NCBI GenBank assembly: GCA_008501785.1
Contig: QQUD01000405.1
Span: 1-6,980, forward strand
Length of the DNA: 6,980 bases
Direction of reading: 5' to 3'
From: Chloroflexota bacterium
GTDB taxonomy: Bacteria; Chloroflexota; Anaerolineae; Promineifilales; Promineifilaceae
Positions within the stretch are counted from its first letter, which is position 1; each line of letters begins with the position of its first letter. The translations under genes and the position numbers were made by a program. Shown here piece by piece: positions 1,366-6,980 of this stretch. The notes under the pieces are model-generated. The model saw nothing but the letters and a program-made list of their open reading frames with translations, was not told the origin of the DNA and did not search any database.

Positions 1366-4125
1366 TTAAGGATGTTGGAATCGGTCGGCATTTTGCAACA
1401 AAGTTTTCGGCACGCCTACAAAAGGATAATCAACCGGCTTCACGTCAGCACAACTTTGCAGCCACGCCGCAACTCGCTCTGCTTTGAAACATCCAATTTT
1501 AGCAAGCAGTGATTGACTTTTTTCGCCATACTTTTGTGCTTCAACAACTTTGCCCCGACCCCAGGAAACCTGCGCCAGACCAAACGTTGCCGATCCTACC
1601 ATTTCGGGAAGTTCCGATTGCATACTGATTTCCAGCATCTCTGAAAATAAATCGTGTGCCGAATCAAATTGTCCGTGTACTAATTGGTATTCGCCATACA
1701 GCGCCAGCACCTCACAAAGGTACCAGACATCACGTTCGGTCCGGGCTAATGATAAGGCTTTTTGAAAATAGAAAACGGCCGTTTGCGATTCCTTCGTCTG
1801 AGATGCAGCATAACCAAGGTACGTCCAGCATTCAATCTCAATATCTTGCCGTCTAGTCTTAACAGATAATTGGCGCGCTTCTTCCAGATAAATTGCAGCC
1901 TGGTGAACATCGCCCAGTTGTGCTGTTACCATTCCTAAACTTGAAAGGATAAAGGCGACAACCTCCTTGCGACCCAATTCTCGGGCAGCCTGTTCACCTG
2001 CCAACAAACTGTCTTGTGCGCGGGCGAAATCACCTCGTTGAGCAATAAAGAGTTCGGCACGGCGCCGAGTCAGGATAATGTTTACAAACGAGTAACCAAT
2101 CTGTTGCGCAATGGTGTCACTCTCATTAATATACGCTTCCGACTGCTCGTAGTGACCCAAACAAAACGCAATCATGCTTAAATTCATCAGCTGCACAGAT
2201 AAGGCAGATAAATTGTTGTGTTTGCGCTGCAAAACCAGACCTTCTAAATTCAGTTTTTCTGCTTTACGGTAATCACCATAATGGTTTAAAGCAAGCGATG
2301 CCAGGTAATTAGTAAGAAACCCTGCCAGTCTGAACTGTTGTGTCTGCTTAGTCAACAACAGACTTTTTTGCCAATACGTTTCCGCTTCTTCATAATTCTG
2401 CCGTCCATGATGAAACATGCCCAAATCCTTCAAAGTCGAGGCAATGATTTTTTCATCTTGACTGTCATAGGCGAGTGTTAGCCCTTCTTTAAAATAAGTT
2501 TGAGCCAGATACAGGTCACGTTCCGCTTCAATACGGCCTAAAGCGCTTTTGATCAAAGCCAAATGACCGAGAGCGTTTTCACCCAGCGCCACCTGTTCAG
2601 CTTGCTGCAATAAGGAAGCTGCCAACTCCTGTAAGCCATTGAGAAGCATAAACTGCGATAAATCAATCGTGAGCTTAACACCCGTTATCATCTTCTCTTG
2701 TGCAAATGCCAGCTTCAACGCACCAACGATATTGTCTAATTCCTCCCCTAATACCCGATAATCATCTCGATTCTTTGCCACAAAATCAGCATAATAATCA
2801 ATCATGCGATTATCAATGGTCGCGTCGCTGATTTTTAACCGTGCATATTCGCGCAACAACGGGTGTAATTGGTACCGTTTGTTTTTGCCTACCTGCACCA
2901 GGGATAAACTAGCCAGCCGGGACAAATTAGAGCGACATGTTGCTGTTGTTACATCGGTAACGGCCGTTGTCGCTTCCAAACTAAAATCTTCACCAACAAA
3001 TAATCCTAACGCAGCAAAAAATTGCTGCTCTGGCAATGATAAGGCCGCATAACTGGCATTAAGCGAAGCCTGTACGCTCTGATCTTCGTGCGTTAATGCG
3101 TTTAAGCGTCCTTTCTCTTCCTGCAGTTGGGCCAGATAGTCGCTCGGGTTAGCATGGGGTTCATACGCAATACGACCCGCAACAATTGCCAGCGCCAAAG
3201 GGAGGTGCCCTAACAAATCGGCAATGGCCGCCAATGTTTTTTGCTCCGTTTTTACTATCTCGGCTCCCAATATCCTGGTAAATAAATCAGTACTGCTTTG
3301 AGAAGTTTTCTCAAAAGGTGTTAGCCGAATGTGTGGATGTCCTCTGGTTATGCGTAGATTCGTATGCCGCGTTGTGATCAGTGTGGCGCAAGAGCCGGTT
3401 GGCGGCAAGAGCGGTTCAATTTGGCTGCTGCTCTCCACATTATCTAGAATGAGCAAGGCATTTTTATGCGCTAACAGGCTGCGTACCACCTGGCTGCGAC
3501 TGTGCAAATCCGTGTAACGGCTCACATCTTGCCCATAAGAATCGGCCAGCAGCTTCAAGAGGGACATTGTGTTACTGATATCGACGCGAACCCACAACAC
3601 CCCATCACTAAAATGCTCGCGTACCTCATAGGCTAAATGAGCGACCAGGGTTGTTTTACCGACCCCTGCCATCCCATTAATAACATAAAGATTTGAATGC
3701 CCCCCGTGCACTAACTGTTGTTTTAAACTCGCAATCTCTTCTTCCCGACCCACAAAATAAGGCAAATCAGGAATAACTTGAAACGGCACAACTGCGGGAC
3801 TTTCTTCTAACCAGGGTAAAAGCAATTGTTTATCAGCTTCTTGATGCGCCAGGATTTGTAGTTCATTGAGGGAGGCATGATCTGTTACCTGCAACAGTTC
3901 ATTTGCCTGTTCGGTATTTAAACGCAGTGCAGACGCAGCCCGAATGAGCTGCTGCCAATCACGGGGACGCCGCACGACACCTTTACACCAATTGCGAATG
4001 GTTCCACGAGGAATGTCGGCACGATTTGCTAATTGCCGTTCACTCCACCCAGCTTGTGCCAGATGCTGCGGTAATAGTTCGGCCAATGAATAGGCCTGAT
4101 TTATCTCTCTTTGATAGGTGGCCAT
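1366..4125 (-). CDS. XRE-type HTH / NB-ARC NTPase / TPR regulator (STAND family)
   Basis: This 919-residue protein has the layout of a STAND signal-transducing ATPase. Residues about 13-80 form a helix-turn-helix resembling XRE domains (SERQLANRADIPRGTIRNW). NB-ARC begins with FVGREEE (124-130). Walker A is GMAGVGKTT (151-159), Walker B is LLILDNV with D228, TTRH lies at 251-254, and the GLPL-like LLGHLPLAL is at 304-312. A winged-helix segment ends in LHPLLREYA, which stands at the usual MHD position. From about residue 500 to 900 the sequence is helical with TPR-like units (for example YEEAETYWQKSLLL). In this family ligand binding to the repeat half releases an ADP-locked NTPase, which then oligomerises. 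The gene is divergent from the four micro-peptide genes and the exporter, with only 91 bases between the start codons, so it is the natural candidate to control them and perhaps sense their product (inference). Only a weak TTGGA precedes its ATG. Confidence 0.9.
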   Translation of the reverse strand: MATYQREINQAYSLAELLPQHLAQAGWSERQLANRADIPRGTIRNWCKGVVRRPRDWQQLIRAASALRLNTEQANELLQVTDHASLNELQILAHQEADKQLLLPWLEESPAVVPFQVIPDLPYFVGREEEIASLKQQLVHGGHSNLYVINGMAGVGKTTLVAHLAYEVREHFSDGVLWVRVDISNTMSLLKLLADSYGQDVSRYTDLHSRSQVVRSLLAHKNALLILDNVESSSQIEPLLPPTGSCATLITTRHTNLRITRGHPHIRLTPFEKTSQSSTDLFTRILGAEIVKTEQKTLAAIADLLGHLPLALAIVAGRIAYEPHANPSDYLAQLQEEKGRLNALTHEDQSVQASLNASYAALSLPEQQFFAALGLFVGEDFSLEATTAVTDVTTATCRSNLSRLASLSLVQVGKNKRYQLHPLLREYARLKISDATIDNRMIDYYADFVAKNRDDYRVLGEELDNIVGALKLAFAQEKMITGVKLTIDLSQFMLLNGLQELAASLLQQAEQVALGENALGHLALIKSALGRIEAERDLYLAQTYFKEGLTLAYDSQDEKIIASTLKDLGMFHHGRQNYEEAETYWQKSLLLTKQTQQFRLAGFLTNYLASLALNHYGDYRKAEKLNLEGLVLQRKHNNLSALSVQLMNLSMIAFCLGHYEQSEAYINESDTIAQQIGYSFVNIILTRRRAELFIAQRGDFARAQDSLLAGEQAARELGRKEVVAFILSSLGMVTAQLGDVHQAAIYLEEARQLSVKTRRQDIEIECWTYLGYAASQTKESQTAVFYFQKALSLARTERDVWYLCEVLALYGEYQLVHGQFDSAHDLFSEMLEISMQSELPEMVGSATFGLAQVSWGRGKVVEAQKYGEKSQSLLAKIGCFKAERVAAWLQSCADVKPVDYPFVGVPKTLLQNADRFQHP

Positions 4126-4216: not shown

Positions 4217-4267
4217 ATGAAGGTTAAAACAACCGTTAAAGCTGGTGGGTACGCTTGGACTGGTTAA
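4217..4267 (+). CDS. Micro-peptide 1 (16 aa), putative Gly-Gly secreted peptide precursor
   Basis: The product is MKVKTTVKAGGYAWTG. It is the first of four paralogous micro-genes. The N-terminal part MKVKTTVKAGG is shared and cationic; the tail YAWTG follows the shared Tyr/Phe-x-Trp-x-Gly pattern. Gly10-Gly11 sits where a C39 peptidase would cut, which would release YAWTG. Evidence that it is translated: four conserved copies in one cluster, a strong GGAGGTG at 4204-4210 with 6-nt spacing, and synonymous changes between copies. It is the copy nearest the divergent regulator. The leader is far shorter than ordinary double-glycine leaders and lacks their Leu/Glu pattern, so processing is inferred from context. 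I do not recognise a named family. Confidence 0.8.
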   Translation: MKVKTTVKAGGYAWTG

Positions 4268-4353
4268 TACTTTGTCATTTACGTTGGCAAAATAAAGGTA
4301 TTTGATGCAGCAGGCTGTTCAGAAAACAAGTTTGTATTATAAGGAGAAAACTA

Positions 4354-4404
4354 ATGAAAGTTAAGACCAAAGTAAAAGGTGGTATCTACACGTGGAGTGG
4401 CTAA
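4354..4404 (+). CDS. Micro-peptide 2 (16 aa), divergent paralogue
   Basis: The product is MKVKTKVKGGIYTWSG. It aligns without gaps to peptide 1, with Tyr12, Trp14 and Gly16 in register. The Gly-Gly is shifted one residue earlier (9-10), so cleavage after it would leave IYTWSG. It is the most divergent copy at both DNA and protein level. AAGGAG at 4341-4346 is 7 nt before the ATG. Its upstream sequence (TATTATA, then AGGAGAAAA) resembles that of peptide 3, so the duplicated unit seems to include the ribosome binding site. No convincing separate promoter is visible in the 86 bases after peptide 1, which suggests co-transcription. Confidence 0.78.
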   Translation: MKVKTKVKGGIYTWSG

Positions 4405-4410
4405 AGTTGA

Positions 4411-4435
4411 GGGGGAGCCTTGCATGGGGGAGCCT
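4411..4435 (+). repeat. Tandem direct repeat GGGGGAGCCT x2 (15-bp period)
   Basis: Two identical copies of GGGGGAGCCT, at 4411-4420 and 4426-4435, are separated by TGCAT. They lie just after the peptide 2 stop codon, in otherwise AT-rich sequence. Such spacing is common for protein-binding repeats, but no function can be assigned from sequence alone. Confidence 0.5.
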
Positions 4436-4457
4436 ATTACTTTAGTAAATTTTTTAT

Positions 4458-4470
4458 CGTGAATTTCACG
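4458..4470. promoter_or_regulatory. Perfect palindrome CGTGAA-T-TTCACG, possible operator
   Basis: The 6-bp arms are perfect with a one-base centre. CACGAA at 4467-4472 also has an inverted partner TTCGTG at 4498-4503, so the motif recurs within 46 bases. The site lies about 100 bases before peptide 3, in a position suitable for a transcription factor; this is inference. Confidence 0.35.
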
Positions 4471-4514
4471 AACATTTCACATACTGTAAATCACAAATTC
4501 GTGCATGTGTAAGT

Positions 4515-4529
4515 CAAGACGTTGTCTTG
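4515..4529. promoter_or_regulatory. Palindrome CAAGAC-GTT-GTCTTG overlapping a possible promoter of micro-peptide 3
   Basis: Six-base perfect arms surround GTT. The right arm overlaps a -35-like TTGTCT (4522-4527), which stands 16 bases before a -10-like TATTTA (4544-4549). A promoter here would give peptide 3 its own start with a short leader. The dyad would be placed to regulate it. The promoter match is moderate. Confidence 0.35.
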
Positions 4530-4572
4530 TCCAAAAAAACAATTATTTAAATACTATAGAAGGAGAAAAACC

Positions 4573-4629
4573 ATGAAAGTTAAAACAACAGTTAAAGCTG
4601 GCGGGTATGGTTGGATTGGTGGGACATAA
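4573..4629 (+). CDS. Micro-peptide 3 (18 aa)
   Basis: The product is MKVKTTVKAGGYGWIGGT. The first 11 residues are identical to peptides 1 and 4. The tail after Gly-Gly is YGWIGGT, keeping Tyr-x-Trp-x-Gly and adding Gly-Thr. AAGGAG at 4560-4565 is 7 nt before the ATG. The 168-base gap before it holds direct and inverted repeats and a possible own promoter, unlike the gap before peptide 2. The gene ends with TAA, and a further TAA follows after one base. Confidence 0.8.
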   Translation: MKVKTTVKAGGYGWIGGT

Positions 4630-4697
4630 TAATATTAATTATTCGTTTTCTCAATCCACAGTATAACTACAAAAATGTCAATATGTTCTACTTATCC

Positions 4698-4719
4698 GTC
4701 TAAAAAGCCTTTTATAGAC
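4698..4719 (+). other. Small imperfect hairpin between micro-peptides 3 and 4
   Basis: GTCTA-AAAA (4698-4706) pairs with TTTT-A-TAGAC (4710-4719) around a GCC loop, with one bulged A. No T-run follows, so it is not a typical intrinsic terminator. It could stabilise or process the peptide mRNA. The rest of the 151-base gap 4630-4780 shows nothing convincing. Confidence 0.3.
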
Positions 4720-4780
4720 ATTGTATATCTTAAAAGTGAATTAAATATTGGACGATTATCTAGAAACAAAGGTAGACAAA

Positions 4781-4834
4781 ATGAAAGTTAAAACAACCGT
4801 TAAAGCTGGTGGGGCATTCGCTTGGAGTGGATAG
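4781..4834 (+). CDS. Micro-peptide 4 (17 aa)
   Basis: The product is MKVKTTVKAGGAFAWSG. Its first 33 bases differ from peptide 1 by a single silent change (AAA for AAG), while the tail AFAWSG is different, with Phe-x-Trp-Ser-Gly and one inserted Ala. AAAGGT at 4768-4773, 7 nt upstream, is a weaker ribosome binding site than those of the other copies. It is the last copy before the hairpin and the export genes. Confidence 0.8.
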   Translation: MKVKTTVKAGGAFAWSG

Positions 4835-4842
4835 TAATAATT

Positions 4843-4884
4843 GAAAATTGTAGGACAAAATAGCAATTTTATCCTACAATTTTC
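4843..4884 (+). terminator. Long hairpin between peptide genes and export genes (attenuator, terminator or mRNA stabiliser)
   Basis: The arm GAAAATTGTAGGA (4843-4855) is perfectly complementary to 4872-4884. After one mismatch the stem continues with AAAAT/ATTTT around an AGCA loop. The stem is AT-rich. A T5 run occurs at 4893-4897, eight bases past the stem, so it is a poor classical terminator. It begins 9 bases after the peptide 4 stop and could lower read-through, or protect the 3' end of the abundant peptide mRNA relative to the exporter mRNA. Confidence 0.55.
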
Positions 4885-4925
4885 CGAACAGCTTTTTATA
4901 ATTATTTGTGCGAGGGAATCATATC

Positions 4926-5438
4926 TTGTCTGCTATATTCTCACGGTCCCTGCAAAAACTTCATACTGAAGTGGGCGGTCGCCATATGTGGCCGCTGTTG
5001 TTGATCACGGCCGTTTTCATCCTCTGGTTGCTCTGGTTCTTGCTGGCCCCCATCACTCAAATTGAAAAGTCCGAAACCGTTGAACTAGCCAGAGGCAACG
5101 AAGCAGTTGCGTATTTCCCGCCATCTTCGCTTGTTCATATCCAGGCAGGACAGCTCGCTCAATTGCGACTCGATGATTTTCCCTGGACAACGTATGGGAT
5201 CGTGCCCGCAACTGTTGTCAAAGTGGTGCCAATTGTGCAAGACGGCCGTATTCAAGTCACCTTTCGCCTTTTACCCACCTCCGATTCATCGATTCCGCTG
5301 CAACGCGGCCTCACCGGCAGCGTCGAAGTTGAAGTTGGCAAAACATCTCCAGCAGCCCTTCTCTTGCAGGCGGTTGGCTACCGCGCCGCTCAAATAGACA
5401 CCCCCAATCCTACAACAACGGAGCGTGATACGCCGTGA
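4926..5438 (+). CDS. Miniature HlyD-like membrane fusion / export accessory protein
   Basis: This is a protein of 170 residues from TTG at 4926. That start is preferred because GAGGG at 4912-4916 stands 9 nt before it. An in-frame GTG at 4908 has no ribosome binding site and would add six residues. A short cytoplasmic N-terminus (SAIFSRSLQKL) is followed by one membrane segment at about 22-42 (LLLITAVFILWLLWFLL) and an extracytoplasmic domain. That domain resembles the C-terminal beta part of HlyD-type adaptors: AYFPPSSLVHIQAGQLAQLRL, then FPWTTYGIVPATVVKVVP, and GLTGSVEVEVG near the end. HlyD proteins bridge ABC exporters to the outside. Typical members are about 400 residues with a lipoyl domain and coiled-coil hairpin; both seem absent here. 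Its stop overlaps the exporter start by 4 nt, indicating translational coupling and a shared export role. Confidence 0.75.
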   Translation: MSAIFSRSLQKLHTEVGGRHMWPLLLITAVFILWLLWFLLAPITQIEKSETVELARGNEAVAYFPPSSLVHIQAGQLAQLRLDDFPWTTYGIVPATVVKVVPIVQDGRIQVTFRLLPTSDSSIPLQRGLTGSVEVEVGKTSPAALLLQAVGYRAAQIDTPNPTTTERDTP

Positions 5439-6980
5439 CGGCCGTTTCTTCCTCCAAACGACGCTTCCTCATCCCCGAAGTTGTGCAAACCTCTGCCATG
5501 GATTGCGGCCCAGCCGCGCTCAAATGTTTGTTGGAAGGATTTTATATTGACGCCAGTTACGGCCGTTTGCGTGAAGCGTGCCAAACCGATGTAGACGGCA
5601 CCTCCATCGACACCATGGAAGAAATAGCCATCCAGCTCGGGTTGGATGCCGAACAAATCATGCTGCCGGTGGACCACCTGCTGCTGCCAGAAGCGAATGC
5701 GCTGCCAGGGCTGGTTGTGGTGCGTCTGCCCAATGGCTTTACGCACTTTGTGGTTGTCTGGCGTACTCACGGCAGCCGCTTTGTGCAAATCATGGACCCC
5801 GCCGTTGGCCGCCGTTGGCAAACCATTCCCCAATTTCTCAGATCCGTTTATACGCACACCTTTCCCGTACCGGCTGATGGCTGGCGTGAATGGGCCGGCT
5901 CGGAAGAATTCCTGGCTCCGCTGCGTCGCCGCTTGGCAGAAATAGGTGTCGTCGGCGAAAAAATGACCGGGTTTGTGCCCGCAATCCTTGCCAATCCTGA
6001 CTGGTTTCCACTTGCCGCATTAGACGCAGCTACGCGAATGGTAACAGCGCTTGTAAATGCGGGTGGATTAGCGCGTGGTCAAGCTGCTGCTATTGCCTTG
6101 CAAACATTTTTAAAACAGACTGAAGAAAGCAAAACCCCAGAAAATTCGCCCATTCCGGCCAGTTATTGGTCAGTACAGCCGTTACCCCCTGACGAGGATG
6201 GCGACGCCCAACTGGCATTACGAGGGGCTGTGATCGTACGCATTAAAGGGAAACTGCCGTCGGTCTCGGAAGGTGAGGGGGGAGAGAAACGGCCGTTATC
6301 CCCCGAACTGGTCGCCGCCCTCGAAGAACCACCCCCTCGCCCAGAACAACACCTGTGGCAAATGCTTTTCGCCGATGGCAAACGACAACCATTTGCGATT
6401 TTGCTTGGCACAATTCTTGCTGCTGGGGGCGTTTTCATTGAAGCGCTGCTCTTTCGCGGCTTGATCGAAATCGGAGAGTCGCTCGGGCTAGTTTTTCAGC
6501 GTTTGGGTGCAATTATTGCCGCCATTCTTTTCATTATCATTCGGCTCTTATTGCAATTTCGGACCACCAGTCACGCTCTCCGCCTGGGACGCACAATCGA
6601 AAATCATTTTCGGATCGCATTTCTAAAAAAAATCCCACGCCTACATGATCGATATTTCCACAGCAGGCCCAAATCAGACATGGCTCAACGCAGCCATTTC
6701 ATTCATAAATTACGCAATTTACCCAATATGGGTGCTGCTATGGTGCGCAATGTGCTCACCATTTTATTTATCATGCTGGGCATTATCTGGTTAAGCCCCC
6801 ACTCAACATTTTGGGCCATCATTACAGCGCTGGTGGCTATCGGTGTGCCGTTGCTGACGCAGCCGCTGTTGGTAGAGCGGGACATGCGCGTGCGAACGCA
6901 TATGGGCGCACTCAGCCGCTCATTTTTAGATGCCATGCTTGGGTTAGTCGCTATCAAGGCCCATACCGCCGAAAAACCTA
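5435..6980 (+). CDS. C39-peptidase-containing ABC exporter (PCAT), C-terminus beyond the window
   Basis: The frame is open from GTG 5435 to the window end (515 codons). The start overlaps the preceding TGA as GTGA, with GGAG at 5420-5423. The N-terminus is a peptidase C39 domain. VVQTSAMDCGPAALKC supplies oxyanion Gln18 and nucleophile Cys24, GFTHFVVVW gives His104, and MDPAVG gives Asp121. Such domains cut leader peptides after Gly-Gly during export. Residues about 136-315 are an unusually long linker, with a charged, Pro-rich part (PLPPDEDGD, EEPPPRPEQ). Membrane segments follow at about 319-340 and 358-376, then the cytoplasmic stretch HFRIAFLKKIPRLHDRYF and SDMAQRSHFI, and more hydrophobic segments from about 441. 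The nucleotide-binding domain must lie to the right. Placement directly after four Gly-Gly micro-peptides makes them its likely substrates (inference). Confidence 0.92.
   Translation, partial: MTAVSSSKRRFLIPEVVQTSAMDCGPAALKCLLEGFYIDASYGRLREACQTDVDGTSIDTMEEIAIQLGLDAEQIMLPVDHLLLPEANALPGLVVVRLPNGFTHFVVVWRTHGSRFVQIMDPAVGRRWQTIPQFLRSVYTHTFPVPADGWREWAGSEEFLAPLRRRLAEIGVVGEKMTGFVPAILANPDWFPLAALDAATRMVTALVNAGGLARGQAAAIALQTFLKQTEESKTPENSPIPASYWSVQPLPPDEDGDAQLALRGAVIVRIKGKLPSVSEGEGGEKRPLSPELVAALEEPPPRPEQHLWQMLFADGKRQPFAILLGTILAAGGVFIEALLFRGLIEIGESLGLVFQRLGAIIAAILFIIIRLLLQFRTTSHALRLGRTIENHFRIAFLKKIPRLHDRYFHSRPKSDMAQRSHFIHKLRNLPNMGAAMVRNVLTILFIMLGIIWLSPHSTFWAIITALVAIGVPLLTQPLLVERDMRVRTHMGALSRSFLDAMLGLVAIKAHTAEKP

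Follow-up and report, generated by a model that had tools for sequence, protein, structure and literature searches.

Export of small peptides through proteins with a C39 peptidase domain has been described in several forms, and four of these come closest to the locus considered here: peptidase-containing ATP-binding cassette (ABC) transporters (PCATs) of the PCAT/AMS type, the NHLM/NHLP export cassette, the pneumococcal Rtg system and the class II microcin or colicin V type. For LahT, the parts of the published study drawn on here report that hydrophobic leader residues at positions -4, -7 and -12 are needed and that Thr at -4 and Lys at -3 are tolerated; the leader of 13 residues tested for LahT is longer than the tag described below (PMC6363468). 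We analysed a stretch of 6,980 nucleotides from a Chloroflexota bacterium (contig QQUD01000405.1; this whole stretch is called the window) in which four micro-genes with a shared ten-residue N-terminal tag precede genes for a short HlyD-like adaptor and a C39-peptidase ABC exporter. The corresponding cassette comprises HlyD, a C39-ABC protein of ~900 amino acids (ABC1) and a second ABC protein of ~710 amino acids with a degenerate C39-like domain (ABC2). Judged from sequence, the micro-genes probably encode minimal secreted-peptide precursors whose tag would be cut by the neighbouring C39 domain and whose tail would leave the cell through a complex of two ABC proteins with HlyD.

At its left side the window carries the end of a histidine kinase and then a response regulator; these are followed by a divergently oriented regulator of the STAND type (signal transduction ATPase with numerous domains), the four micro-genes, the adaptor and the exporter (Table 1). 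The micro-gene products have 16–18 residues and each of the four genes has a purine-rich Shine-Dalgarno (SD) stretch before it. A first-pass annotation made from the letters of the window had proposed this series of SD-preceded micro-genes ahead of a mini-HlyD and a C39 exporter, and it is borne out: a degenerate leader codon pattern picks exactly the four micro-genes in the window and gives 0 matches in 200 dinucleotide shuffles. A repeat finder returns one family of four 54-nt copies in the window; because these are only 67–85% identical to the reference copy, the set is not one long duplicated block. Pairwise comparison of the four leaders gives 17 synonymous-only codon differences versus six that change the amino acid.

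Similar genes occur in several phyla. A peptide-first scan over a collection of genome contigs, in which the leader pattern was combined with a Trp codon, yielded 26 loci in 24 genomes, most with small genes that start MK[VI]K[TS]x[VI]KAG and have an SD stretch in front. Record titles of the pattern loci name Acidobacteriota, Chloroflexota, Myxococcota, Planctomycetota, a gammaproteobacterial bin, Syntrophobacterales and Desulfatirhabdium. Three loci (L011, L018 and L023) are chance-like, with frames that are longer and unrelated (lipoprotein-like in one case); they were removed from the peptide counts and kept among the 24 genomes. Control scans with the reversed pattern gave zero matches, and the pattern is rare in non-centre genomes (1/399, 0/120 and 0/99), where the sole match (G390) has an ABC2-like gene 2.6 kb away, with 31% identity and truncated by the contig end. 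Over all searches the count is 64 distinct peptides (69 copies), drawn from the window and 26 genomes, a set that takes in two doubtful longer peptides from G464 and is incomplete, being without the altered or extended forms of G476 and G277 and further places in G469.

The constant part of the family is MK[VI]K[TS]x[VI]K[AGS]G and the remainder varies. The collecting expression demanded M1, K or R at positions 2, 4 and 8, and G10, so these cannot be called conserved from the set alone. Among the 64 peptides, position 8 is K in all, position 3 is V or I, position 5 is T (50), S (13) or A (1), position 7 is V (40), I (20), T (2), L (1) or M (1), and position 9 is A (59), S (4) or G (1); twelve different residues occur at position 11. 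Tails are 5–114 residues long, with 49 of 64 at or below 15. The tail pattern [YF]xWxG, suggested from the window, turns out to be a local flavour: Trp is absent from 33 tails and present in 31, a count inflated because Trp formed part of the first search pattern, and a Trp motif is not upheld as a family hallmark. Between paralogues within one genome, 342 synonymous versus 153 changing comparisons were counted for leader codons and 143 versus 750 for tail codons, where the chance share of synonymous single changes is 0.24, the pairs are non-independent and the leader was itself selected for by the search. A four-base SD match lies ahead of 67 of the 69 copies versus 12% (1845/15420) of ATGs in 32 loci. 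As an aside on the tails, several in a Terriglobia locus (L070, 12716–13361) are Cys-rich (PHGCGSGGCMHAA), which suggests disulfides or metal binding in that branch. The two G464 frames (Desulfatirhabdium; L017 and L184) bear the leader and have 48 and 60 amino acids with unrelated tails, and the cassette was not found there.

The tag also recurs inside longer proteins. With a 46-residue peptide near a cassette (L132) as query, 73 proteins of 39–81 amino acids were retrieved at E <= 1, its own record included, and none of these relatives has a Pfam domain or a functional name; two longer members that were scanned match nothing in NCBIfam and no Pfam family above its cut-off. Most of the 73 repeat a unit [K/R]VK[T/S]xVKAG-variable-NHN(Q)(T) and would thus be poly-precursors. 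Because the tag is repeated inside these relatives, it is a module and not merely an N-terminus. No description of the family was found in open-licence PMC literature, as far as titles and the beginnings of abstracts indicate; exact tag strings such as MKVKTTVKAG are unmatched in that literature, and papers that match NHNET-type unit strings are, among the matches listed, unrelated by title. The precursor family is real, apparently undescribed and accompanied by a recognizable exporter cassette.

Peptide genes adjoin HlyD, ABC1 and ABC2 in several loci, and a cassette gene is no more than 5 kb away in 10 of the 26 loci. In Minicystis rosea DSM 24000, by comparison, ABC1 and ABC2 lie at 12.56 Mb next to an HlyD gene, and four pattern matches fall at three different positions away from them. 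At least one of the two cassette ABC genes is present in 19 of the 24 peptide-first genomes (G001, G002, G004 and G009, plus 15 of 20 others by ABC2; ABC1 is found in 14 of those 20), with both in 17; G002 has ABC1 only, on a short contig, and G465 has ABC2 only. The five without a cassette are G006, the doubtful G464 and the three chance-like cases. With centres removed, the background rate is 13/594, about 2% (ABC1 in 2/399 Chloroflexota and in 7/75 of the order of Minicystis, ABC2 in 4/120 Terriglobia), which gives a Fisher probability of 2e-23 that is an order of magnitude only, because thresholds and phyla differ between the two sides and few background candidates were scored. The order of G001 was excluded from this background (5/56 at E <= 1e-20, including G001 and G002); if it is included, the rate is 16/648.

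The tie was also approached from the exporter side, through 16 further genomes found by the exporter alone and with peptide rules that were loosened after the fact. The proposal that micro-genes should be found beside homologous C39 exporters held, with peptides either adjoining or elsewhere in the same genome. They lie beside the exporter in four of the 16, as MKVKTNVKSGGGDAWSG in G457, MKVKTSTKSGASRQAWS in G453, an array of KKTPKPKLKVKTQVKGG...NHNE forms in G476, and a 39-mer in G277 with what we take to be two altered motif copies; in two more (G752 and G496) they occur elsewhere in the genome.

The exporter part of the cassette has an intact peptidase site. The set of Gln, Cys, His and Asp is complete in 28 of the 29 C39 domains that were aligned (33 loci were given, four of which the regular expression did not catch), and the domains align with the solved PCAT1, LahT (LahT150) and ComA domains and match them in sequence and fold. 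The closest exporter relatives among the loci examined are L021 (61% identity) and L025 (58%), which together with the short HlyD would point to Chloroflexota as the source of the window. An AlphaFold model of residues 1–326 of the window ABC1 (mean predicted local distance difference test, pLDDT, 87.9) shows the C39 fold and, after it, an additional segment of ~130 residues that is mostly helical. The ATP-binding part lies beyond the window edge and is seen in relatives only; in L083 and L070, ABC_tran is matched strongly and ABC_membrane below its Pfam cut-off. This type of exporter is common: its first 300 residues match at least 4765 protein clusters at E <= 1e-30, not all of which need be this cassette. 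A second G453 exporter (L068, 5725–8385, minus strand) has lost the catalytic residues from its C39-like domain, and its 20 kb contain no tag peptide.

An ABC2 gene is presumably present past the right edge of the window. The first 220 residues of the L083 ABC2 were modelled with a mean pLDDT of 88.7, and the best structural match of this domain is the PCAT1 peptidase (E 3.4e-4; template-modelling score 0.36 by query length and 0.49 by target length), followed by AvrPphB, another cysteine protease. The domain therefore appears C39-like, with moderate likeness to the PCAT1 peptidase in the model; an alignment of 14 ABC2 sequences has no conserved Cys or His. HlyD is short in Chloroflexota: counted from the first possible start, its frame has 145–200 residues in the window and in eight Chloroflexota loci (two from one genome), and at least 384 residues in 20 other loci with a match. 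Similarity searches gave no HlyD match in four loci, three of them Chloroflexota. The contig pieces of G005, G008 and G462 are without an HlyD recognizable by similarity. The window adaptor likely starts at TTG 4926 (170 amino acids), with GAGGG in front and in agreement with the 'FSRS' start of its relatives. Some Chloroflexales are without the usual outer-membrane genes, with an outer layer nonetheless reported in two of three strains in the part of that study considered here (PMC7332563), which would fit a loss, in the short form, of the part that docks on an outer-membrane channel. In L083 (5803–7047, minus strand) and in the L132 HlyD frame (minus strand), N-terminal extensions carry tag-like stretches (VKAKTKIRGG... 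and VRARKLKTHLKAG...), as if a peptide gene had been fused in frame.

The conserved element before the tail is K-[A/G/S]-G rather than Gly-Gly, so the cut is expected after residue 10. Gly-Gly is ruled out as the conserved cut site, with Ala predominant at position 9 and position 11 free, and the cut proposed from the window after Gly-Gly has to be moved. Three of the four tails predicted with it (YAWTG, YGWIGGT and AFAWSG) were off by one residue and become GYAWTG, GYGWIGGT and GAFAWSG; IYTWSG stands. Counted from Gly10, and relative to the LahT rules in the cited portion of that work, the tag has V or I at -4 (T in G453), Lys at -3 and V or I at -8. A conventional Glu-Leu double-glycine precursor, sought in 16 loci with one regular expression, gave two matches, neither with an SD stretch. 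In view of the partial fit to the LahT rules and of the intact catalytic residues, PCAT peptidase chemistry with an altered, shorter leader recognition is the likeliest explanation.

In the mechanism that we propose, residues 1–10, MKVKTxVK[AG]G, would serve as a tag for export and processing. The C39 domain of the adjacent exporter would recognize this tag by its hydrophobic -8 and -4 residues, and the cut would fall after Gly10. The tail of 6–8 residues would then exit through the two-ABC complex, formed by the C39-ABC protein and the second ABC protein with its degenerate C39-like domain, together with an HlyD adaptor, which has its full length in most relatives and is much reduced in Chloroflexota. 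Peptide genes occur multiplied in arrays, at times far from the exporter, and in relatives they are concatenated with the tag repeated inside. Several observations weigh against this mechanism. Conservation of the leader is partly built into the search patterns, which required M1 and G10, and the background and test genomes for the cassette tie differ in phylum and in search thresholds, with few candidates scored per background genome. The tag fits the LahT rules at -1 and -4 and departs from them elsewhere, as far as the cited portion sets them out: -7 is Lys, -12 is absent and -2/-1 is mostly A-G; the doubt that the first-pass annotation had expressed about leader recognition was thus justified (PMC6363468). 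Cassette searches of G006 and G464 were negative. G006 is a real exception, a planctomycete (L020/L076) with six tag peptides in three pairs of the GGGNYTG and GGGNWGG types, and it may use another exporter or have an incomplete genome. Finally, ten of the 16 exporter-first genomes have no peptide by the loosened rules (G021, G446, G538, G580, G706, G708, G724, G743, G758 and G768, with the G446 exporter cut by the contig end), which implies that the exporter has further cargo or that the rules miss leaders.

Other explanations can be weighed against the same evidence. The tag could remain uncut, with KVKxxVKAG kept in the mature peptide, for example as a cationic cell-surface or membrane-binding strand, and the whole peptide carried by the exporter. 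Its strongly cationic character would suit such a role, as would its repetition inside most of the 73 longer proteins, where cleavage behind every KAG would release pieces that still carry the following tag; we nevertheless consider an uncut tag unlikely, given an intact C39 active site in nearly all aligned domains and variability that begins where the tag ends. A modified natural product is about equally improbable. Arrays with a constant leader and variable Trp- or Cys-containing tails do resemble precursors of ribosomally synthesized and post-translationally modified peptides (RiPPs), and the STAND neighbour in the window matches RiPP-system models, far below their cut-offs; under this reading, modifying enzymes would lie elsewhere in the genome. 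Against this, the tails are variable and have no fixed modifiable site, and no RiPP-enzyme family stands among the top 25 Pfam families by number of matches in 52 neighbours (another 60, with few matches, are unlisted). A CxxxCxxC radical S-adenosylmethionine motif is likewise absent from 140 neighbouring open reading frames (ORFs), and the tails are therefore probably unmodified.

That the micro-genes are regulatory upstream ORFs rather than precursors is very improbable. They do lie upstream of the exporter genes in the window, with a stable hairpin after the last one; such a role is at odds with arrays of up to nine copies per locus, with copies downstream of ABC2 (L070 and L081), before ABC2 alone (L134) or far from the cassette, and with conservation at the amino-acid level. 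Genes this short are usually noise and three of the 26 pattern loci are chance-like; chance or an annotation artefact can still be considered negligible here in view of the zero counts in shuffled sequences and reversed-pattern controls and of a tie to one exporter type across phyla.

Table 1. Features of the window (slash, predicted cut; SD, Shine-Dalgarno sequence; aa, amino acids)
Feature	Positions	Strand	Remarks
STAND regulator (helix-turn-helix/NB-ARC/TPR), divergent	1366..4125	-	919 aa; relative with 50-53% identity at the corresponding position of L064 (there in two frames) and L065
Micro-gene 1	4217..4267	+	MKVKTTVKAGGYAWTG = MKVKTTVKAG/GYAWTG; SD cggaggtg
Micro-gene 2	4354..4404	+	MKVKTKVKGGIYTWSG = MKVKTKVKGG/IYTWSG; SD aaggag
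Micro-gene 3	4573..4629	+	MKVKTTVKAGGYGWIGGT = MKVKTTVKAG/GYGWIGGT; SD aaggag
Micro-gene 4	4781..4834	+	MKVKTTVKAGGAFAWSG = MKVKTTVKAG/GAFAWSG; SD aaagg
Inverted repeat	4843..4884	.	19 bp, 95% complementary, A+T-rich; between micro-gene 4 and HlyD; RNA fold z -5.6
Short HlyD-like adaptor	4926..5438 (longest ORF 4908-5438)	+	weak TIGR01843 match, E 2.6e-4; 45% identity to L064/L065 adaptors
C39-peptidase ABC exporter, open at window edge	5435..6979	+	N-terminal 515 aa; Pfam C39 peptidase, E 1.4e-18; Q18, C24, H104, D121 present

The inverted repeat is terminator-like on the minus strand only in a terminator scan and is a possible terminator or attenuator. Lying between the fourth peptide gene and the exporter genes, it could determine how much peptide is made relative to exporter. 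No known RNA element reaches the gathering threshold in the window, and sigma-70 promoters in the peptide region do not exceed the level of shuffled sequences. A phage origin was rejected: neither a phage collection nor, for the pattern, a set of viral contigs gave a match.

In Gram-positive bacteria, TPR proteins serve as receptors for peptides, which makes a signalling reading attractive; the STAND/TPR neighbour may be a regulator or receptor. BTAD-NB-ARC regulators lie nearby in L064, L019 and L005, and TPR, kinase or winged-helix-TPR proteins occur in L070, L081, L125, L126 and L132, with no adjoining peptide in L125 and L126. Among the 52 Pfam-scanned neighbours (51 of the 140 near ORFs plus the response regulator of the window), NB-ARC is matched by 6 and TPR_2 by 7; such genes are common and the background is unmatched, so no claim of enrichment is upheld. 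It is tentatively possible, and on present evidence doubtful, that KVKTxVKAG is a modular N-terminal or internal secretion tag by which Acidobacteriota, Chloroflexota, Myxococcota and some proteobacterial lineages release unmodified oligopeptides of 5–30 residues through the two-ABC exporter to receptors of the STAND/TPR or kinase-TPR type encoded nearby, as a new class of cell-cell signalling outside Gram-positives.

With the motif and the exporter signature described here, genomes can be searched for a secreted-peptide family that tends to escape gene callers, its genes often having only 15–25 codons. Bacteria may thus secrete short peptides by a route that gene finders miss, in phyla from which, to our knowledge, few peptide signals or bacteriocins have been described. 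The system also bears on how a C39 peptidase could recognize leaders below the length of 13 residues that the cited part of the LahT study tested, and on how such export could be adapted to cells without a usual outer membrane.

Class II microcins and the colicin V type of diderms likewise use a C39 ABC protein with HlyD, with precursors that are many times longer and have canonical leaders. The NHLM/NHLP export cassette (TIGR03794, TIGR03796 and TIGR03797) shares the set of HlyD, C39-ABC and second ABC, and TIGR03796 is the top NCBIfam match of ABC1 in L083 and L070; however, scores fall far short of the curated cut-offs (170–190 versus 853 for ABC1, 52 versus 156 for the L083 HlyD and 93–120 versus 709 for ABC2), and the peptide leader is presumably unlike the nitrile-hydratase or Nif11 leaders of NHLM/NHLP precursors. 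Leaders of the Rtg system are longer than the present tag. Rtg (RtgAB) resembles the window in its PCAT locus, co-located small double-glycine peptides and regulator, whereas its regulation, in the part of the report considered, is by an Rgg/SHP-like RtgR/RtgS pair separate from those peptides, unlike the STAND regulator here (PMC7018657). The regulator of the window is of the helix-turn-helix/NB-ARC/TPR kind and not of the Rgg type, and the likeness to Rtg raised at first is functional at most. As in PCAT1, LahT and ComA, the C39 domain has Gln, Cys, His and Asp, ABC parts are present (in relatives), and the constant leader has small residues at -2/-1 and V or I at -4. Unlike them, ABC1 has ~900 residues with the extra segment after C39, there is a partner ABC2, and the ten-residue leader, with Lys at -7, no -12 and mostly A-G instead of G-G, is not the hydrophobic -4/-7/-12 leader with a double-glycine end. 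As far as sequence tells, the system would work like PCAT export, with a gene make-up that resembles the NHLM cassette.

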